Source: Saprospiraceae bacterium (GTDB taxonomy: Bacteria; Bacteroidota; Bacteroidia; Chitinophagales; Saprospiraceae). Taken from it: 64,000 nt of DNA. The stretch lies in NCBI GenBank assembly GCA_028284395.1, contig JANQRV010000415.1:1-64000 (forward strand), in the 5' to 3' direction. This document shows, in pieces, positions 12,657 to 13,153 of the stretch. Made by a program: the position numbers and the translations under genes. The notes under the pieces are model-generated. The model searched no databases and had not been told where the DNA came from. It saw only the letters and a program-made list of their open reading frames with translations. Numbering within the stretch: position 1 is the first letter of the stretch; each line of letters begins with the position of its first letter.

Positions 12657-12701
12657 AAAAAAAACAGGGTAACTGCGGTTTGAGAATTCGCAGCACCCTG
12701 T
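12657..12701 (-). terminator. Strong intrinsic terminator on the minus strand
   Basis: ACAGGGT (12664-12670) pairs with ACCCTGT (12695-12701), and CTGCG (12673-12677) with CGCAG (12689-12693). On the minus strand the stem is followed by eight T residues (complement of 12657-12664). No minus-strand protein gene lies to its right before radA, so it points to a short untranslated transcript. Confidence 0.7.
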
Positions 12702-12828
12702 ATAACCCCAAAAAACCAAATGAAAACAATCTACATATGAATGCTCTTAATCGAGATAGATTTCAACTTTATTATATTTCACTCCAACAGAACTTTAATG
12801 GATAAAGTTCTCCCCTTCTAACCACATT
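12657..12828 (-). ncRNA. Candidate small RNA, about 170 nt, with promoter and terminator
   Basis: The unit runs leftward from a consensus promoter (12833-12864) to the strong terminator at 12657-12701. No protein gene lies in it. The 5' part contains a perfect 8-bp hairpin (12804-12811 with 12789-12796, 7-nt loop). Starting at or next to the predicted transcription start is a 10-codon leaderless frame (12827-12795, MWLEGENFIH) whose end falls in that hairpin; this may be chance. No known RNA family was recognised. The length would suit a 6S-like or trans-acting regulator, but this is only a size argument. Confidence 0.5.
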
Positions 12829-12832
12829 AACA

Positions 12833-12864
12833 CAAAGTTAACAGTATAGTGTAAAAATTACAAA
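12833..12864 (-). promoter_or_regulatory. Consensus Bacteroidota promoter for the minus-strand RNA
   Basis: Reading on the minus strand, TTTG (12864-12861), a 20-nt spacer and TAACTTTG (12840-12833) exactly match TTTG-N19-21-TAnnTTTG. The predicted start is around 12828. Confidence 0.65.
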
Positions 12865-13153
12865 AAACCTTTCACTTTTTTTCGTTAAAGTTCCAATTTA
12901 CCTTATCAATGATTCTCTTTTTTCTTATCAAGTTGGGAATCGTCTGTGTTGTAGCGATTTTTTATTTCCCTGAAAACCAAATAGTTGGATATTGTATTAG
13001 AAAACAGTCTTTATTAAGACGAGCTTAATTGTCAAAAGTCACAAGGGCCATGAAAAAATAAGCGGTCGGATTGTCACTTTGCTCTTATCTTTGTTTACCG
13101 GAAGGAGACACGTAATCAAACAAGTTTAAGACTATATCATATTCCAATAATTA
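12865..13153. other. Intergenic region upstream of radA
   Basis: AT-rich with no supported gene. TATCTTTG at 13086-13093 matches the Bacteroidota -7 element and could start radA transcription about 55 nt before its ATG; no clear -33 box is seen at the usual spacing. Confidence 0.35.

Follow-up and report, generated by a model that had tools for sequence, protein, structure and literature searches.

The segment lies on the minus strand of the window, that is, the whole 64,000-nucleotide stretch of DNA analysed here. Two plus-strand genes, encoding a carbon-nitrogen hydrolase and a DksA/TraR-type zinc-finger protein, are convergent with it and point at its terminator. The other neighbour, radA, is divergent from its promoter. 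The proximal promoter (12833..12864, minus strand) is of the Bacteroidota housekeeping type, TTTG-N20-TAACTTTG, with TTTG at 12864-12861, a 20-nt spacer and TAACTTTG at 12840-12833. A 10-codon frame, ATG...TAA, is read from the minus-strand sequence at 12827-12795. A 21-nt 5' hairpin, GAACTTTATCCATTAAAGTTC, predicted to fold, is located at 12790..12810 of the same strand. A minus-strand linker joins it to the conserved core, or putative seed, AGATTGTTTTCATTTGGTTTTTTGGGGTTAT (12702..12732, minus strand). The intrinsic terminator (12657..12701, minus strand) follows, with stem ACAGGGTGCTGCG..CGCAGTTACCCTG at 12701-12665 and T8 at 12664-12657. Upstream of all these elements, a putative distal promoter of the small RNA, TTGTGACTTTTGACAATTAAGCTCGTCTTAA, resembles ECF-sigma promoters (13014..13044, minus strand). 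A first-pass annotation of the DNA had described the proximal promoter, the hairpin, the terminator and the 10-codon frame, and each of them is present base for base at its minus-strand position. As it had also noted, the terminator is used by no minus-strand protein gene, the neighbours being the convergent DksA/TraR-type gene and the divergent radA.

The folding energy of the segment is unremarkable (z -1.5). Because folding alone is weak evidence, it is conservation that decides that the locus exceeds chance. The conservation in sister genomes on which the annotation had staked its reading was found for the core, for the terminator, with compensatory stem changes, and, in close relatives, for TAACTTTG at the same distance, but not for the 5' hairpin. 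With a mean z of -0.8 over 12 copies the hairpin is not generally conserved, and it was rejected as the functional core. A leaderless 10-codon peptide was likewise rejected, since the frame is not kept in relatives. The proposal of a small RNA gene of an unrecognised family gains support from a core and terminator found throughout Saprospiraceae and from the lack of an Rfam match: searched against Rfam 15 at gathering score, the segment and 13 related loci gave nothing credible. The sole Rfam match in the window is a SAM riboswitch (RF00162, 50906-51038, plus strand, 76 bits). Judged by its sequence, the minus-strand segment is very probably a true small-RNA gene, belonging to a family that had not been described, and we infer a regulatory role for its RNA.

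The most conserved element of the locus (window 12732-12702) was absent from the first-pass description. The defining part of the family is not the 5' hairpin. It is a core of about 28 nt, AUUGUUUUCAWUUGGUUUUUUGGGGUUAU, directly abutting the intrinsic terminator. A run of 29 nt, from position -9 to +19, hardly varies among 169 host copies and reads ATTGTTTTCA(A/T)TTGGTTTTTTGGGGTTAT, one core position being A or T (30/69%). Core positions -1 to +17 were largely set by the search pattern, which left the flanks (-9 to -2 and +18 to +25) free. The region upstream of the core varies in length and sequence among copies, and paralogues share only the core and the terminator, the remainder being different. 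Comparison of the copies shows strong constraint on the predicted RNA gene, concentrated in one 28-nt segment. This core is predicted to be unpaired in a 76-nt minimal RNA and to be paired about half the time or more once upstream sequence is included. A pairing of its GGGG with a terminator arm, proposed by RNAalifold from alignment A1, was rejected as the product of misaligned arms.

The terminator starts directly after the core, and from copy to copy its stem consists of different sequences that still pair. In a MAFFT alignment of the host copies, 83% of the stem cells pair and 40 cells carry double changes, and none of 500 shuffles scored as high. The corresponding values are 95% and 82 cells in the phage set described below, again with 0/500 shuffles, this set having been aligned to the model and hence biased toward it. 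Compensatory changes in both sets thus back the intrinsic terminator.

Used as a DNA query, the segment matches 28 of 61 genomes, its own and 27 relatives, all of them Saprospiraceae; the best-kept part shows 95-100% identity over 40-57 nt. The core pattern, exact or with at most one mismatch, is found in 175 of 248 Saprospiraceae genomes, and the reversed pattern gives a handful of matches. A covariance model finds the family in 42 of the 47 Saprospiraceae genomes of an order-level sample. In a phylum-level sample, it was found in 6/6 Saprospiraceae and in 0/251 other Bacteroidota. In the GTDB collection a scan found at least 117 stretches; of the records that have a title, almost all are Saprospiraceae or Lewinella-like. 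One good match lies outside the family (G353, E 1.3e-6), at a contig edge and with TGTGAC...GTCTTAA upstream; it may reflect contamination of a metagenome-assembled genome, or transfer. The plasmid collection, searched for the family, gave no match. The genome of the window contains three exact cores, C174 (the window), C7 and C496. A further match, C450 (E 0.008), without a good terminator, was rejected as a chance hit.

Genomes carry 1-7 copies, some in tandem arrays. Where an upstream ORF is present, radA is divergent from 107 of 152 copies, that of the window included. The adjacency to a DksA/TraR-like gene put forward in the annotation is real in the window, where this gene is the convergent neighbour, but only 35 copies have it downstream and the usual positional link is with radA. 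Copies also recur on the 3' side of an outer-membrane beta-barrel gene and next to ileS, from which they diverge.

Two types of promoter precede the copies. Conservation of the housekeeping-type TAACTTTG promoter does not extend beyond near relatives, in which CTGTTAACTTTGcGTTAA lies about 100-120 nt upstream of the core. Among 167 copies, GTTAANTTTNNGTTAA occurs 6 times in the sense direction, 0 times in antisense and 0 times in shuffled sequences. The second type, TGTGAC-N15..19-CGTC, is present upstream in the sense direction in 55/167 copies and in antisense in 0/167, where shuffles lead one to expect 0.15. Of these distinct sites, 54/55 have 15 or 16 nt between the halves, TGTGAC-N15/16-CGTCWWAA. 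The consensus of this distal promoter is TTGTGACY-N13/16-CGTCWWAA, with a YGNA stretch downstream, and TTGTGACY..CGTCWWAA has the form of a putative ECF-sigma promoter. Two thirds of the copies are without a recognisable ECF promoter. In the 11.15 Mb genome of the window, the strict form TGTGAC..CGTCTTAA occurs once, at the window locus. With this ECF-like motif and a conserved housekeeping-type motif, the locus probably has two promoters.

The ECF-like motif is not confined to the RNA. Across 120 Saprospiraceae genomes, it also precedes genes for MscS-type channels, an aquaporin, a Zn-metallopeptidase and an AI-2E-type transporter (L226, L237, L238, L242, L229, L233), and in the window's own genome an OmpA-family gene lies 252 nt downstream of such a motif. 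The motif-bearing genes suggest a candidate envelope or osmotic stress ECF regulon of Saprospiraceae. The motif was also observed before short terminator-ended stretches that have no core (L220, L223 with two copies, L231, L232, L233, L236 and L246), which are possibly further small RNAs of the same regulon. At locus L228 (G066), CAATTGGATTTGGGGTTATTTTT lies downstream of the motif and is a possible divergent core.

The core is also present in phages. Scanning IMG/VR with TTTCAWTTGGTTTTTTGGGG identified at least 22 stretches of phage contigs, against 0 for the reversed control. By terminator sequence they fall, in our count, into roughly 15 distinct groups. After the core, every one of them runs on T-rich (GTT.. 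or the like), and in nearly all a strong hairpin comes next. Beside them lie, among others, genes for the large subunit of terminase, for portal proteins, for a resolvase and for an amidase. In seven phage loci, two of which have a slightly different core or were found by a second pattern, TAnnTTTG is located 8-38 nt before the core, so that the phage RNA would begin almost at the core. A tRNA, often degenerate, lies at most 260 nt upstream in 7 of 24 phage loci, some of these seven being near-identical phages, as compared with 0/162 host copies and 0/120 shuffles. Processing of this tRNA could release the RNA. One may tentatively imagine that Saprospiraceae and their phages share one 28-nt regulatory core, little altered between chromosomes, tandem arrays and a variety of phages, and that some phages use degenerate-tRNA processing to release it and so hijack the host ECF stress circuit. 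The INPHARED phage collection was also searched and gave no match.

On balance, we lean towards the view that the core acts as a trans-acting base-pairing seed of a stress-inducible small RNA, directed against the start regions of envelope-protein mRNAs. Transcription would start at the housekeeping-type promoter (RNA of about 170 nt), at the ECF-type stress promoter (about 350 nt), or at both, and would end at the intrinsic terminator. Induction by envelope or osmotic stress would pass through the ECF promoter. The unpaired 28-nt core beside the terminator would then be the seed that pairs in trans. Its complement, AUAACCCCAAAAAACCAAAUGAAAACAAUCU, resembles a Bacteroidota translation start, with an A-rich leader followed by AUG AAA ACA AUC, which would encode M-K-T-I. 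This peptide is a common start of exported proteins. By virtue of this resemblance, the RNA would cover the start codons of several envelope-protein mRNAs and translation would be blocked. A minimal phage copy would impose the same repression during infection. Because one core position is either A or T, in the proportions given above, the AUG complement is not always retained.

Target searches gave the following picture. In 2 Mb of one complete genome (G085), the mean binding of the core to 1406 start regions is -13.43, slightly stronger than the -12.8 +/- 0.29 of shuffled cores. The core has 17 start regions with dG <= -22; shuffled cores average 8.4 +/- 3.6, and the highest count in 40 shuffles is 20. 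The start-region values and the tail counts of this analysis were used, the means of its internal-CDS control being invalid because some windows yielded no usable duplex. Several of the best sites belong to TonB-receptor-like or other exported proteins, and export is not clearly enriched. A duplex-energy search of 697 genes near the loci revealed no excess of targets. Within the window's own genome, sequences complementary to the core, exactly or nearly so, are scattered and follow no pattern, three or four lying at the starts of exported proteins. Perfect 13-nt complements before ATG, searched in 248 genomes, are mostly variant copies of the small RNA or isolated genes, and no single conserved target emerged from them. 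Antisense action is favoured and unproven, protein binding being its main rival.

According to that rival, which we regard as rather unlikely, the core would be a decoy: the RNA would sequester an RNA-binding protein, for example an RRM protein like RbpB, or be stabilised by it, and arrays would multiply the sites. A nearly invariant, G/U-rich core is compatible with this, but an invariance of 28 nt is longer than a typical RRM site. Also in keeping with a decoy are the tandem arrays, in which 3-5 core-plus-hairpin units follow one another, many at a spacing of about 90 nt (L096, L125, L138 and G136:C93, with five in G136); most genomes, however, have 1-3 single copies, few for titration. An RRM RNA-binding protein gene lies on the same strand 385 nt upstream of one copy (L013 in G028), yet this adjacency was met only once. 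Some of the inner array units have weak T-tails, which suggests that an array yields one long multi-seed RNA.

It is improbable that the core is a generic 3'-end or stability module carried by unrelated transcripts such as tRNAs and short RNAs, and not a regulator. Its position behind tRNA-like genes in phages and the differing 5' parts of the host copies would be explained in this way. However, the number of copies per genome is too low for a general terminator element, and phage copies that can begin almost at the core leave little to stabilise. Less probable still is an attachment site for phages or mobile elements, to which the RNA gene would be incidental. Small RNA and tRNA genes are frequent attachment sites, and the core does occur in phage contigs and in a mobile-element-like region (L463). 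Against this, the phage copies come with covarying terminators, and often promoters, of their own, and adjoin terminase, portal or lysis genes; a crude motif scan near them found no integrase. Moreover, the core persists in chromosomal paralogues and in tandem copies, and no inserted elements were seen where these were examined. Finally, a conserved element followed by an intrinsic terminator looks like a leader or attenuator acting in cis on the gene behind it. This reading is hardly credible: of 151 copies, 104 have their first downstream ORF (100 aa or longer) on the opposite strand and 47 on the same strand, this ORF is convergent in the window, and neighbour genes vary.

Among described systems, FopS/GibS of Bacteroides comes closest. 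These multicopy small RNAs bind RbpB, repress susC mRNAs by acting at the start codon, and have been reported in a phage (PMC11697453). The Saprospiraceae RNA would act in a similar way. Like them, the Saprospiraceae RNAs are multicopy and intergenic in a Bacteroidota family, and have one conserved segment containing a start antisense, UGUUUUUCAU in FopS/GibS and UGUUUUCAU here. Housekeeping promoters, one 3'-UTR-derived member (here a possible one) and presence in phages are further common points. In contrast, the R1/R1' seed of FopS/GibS, GTGTTTTTCATAGTATTAGATTTAAGG, is not found, the Saprospiraceae core being different outside the TGTTTTCAT stretch, and the seed is at the 5' end in FopS but beside the terminator here. 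Because the seed is otherwise different and next to the terminator, we do not class the RNA as FopS. The host family is also another one, the ECF-type promoter and the tandem arrays belong to the Saprospiraceae RNA, and the targets are demonstrated for FopS but predicted here.

Two other groups are comparable in part. MicA, RybB and MicL are SigmaE-dependent envelope-stress small RNAs of enterobacteria. They share with the present RNA an ECF-type promoter, a terminator-ended small RNA and envelope targets, the latter being proposed here, and have no sequence relation to it. LhrC designates tandem multicopy small RNAs of Listeria, which also have several copies, some adjacent, and repeated single-stranded motifs. 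LhrC is, however, C/U-rich, unlike the G/U-rich Saprospiraceae core, and the single Rfam match to LhrC scores far under the threshold and falls on the opposite strand, beyond the limits of the RNA itself.

To our knowledge, very few small RNAs are known in Bacteroidota outside gut Bacteroides, and in the literature we found no small RNA reported from Saprospiraceae and no paper containing the core sequence. Saprospiraceae are common in activated sludge. A family-wide small RNA with a near-invariant core, an ECF-type promoter and minimal phage copies is a directly testable system. For bacteria whose translation initiation is unusual, it could show which mRNAs a start-codon-mimicking seed controls, and it could show why phages carry the core. 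A last observation concerns the mobile-element-like region mentioned above (L463:7032-7421, G014:C191). There, the frame of a small HTH gene continues at its 3' end across the right half of the core (..RFGFLGLYNG..) and on into a terminator; this copy is possibly 3'-end-derived.
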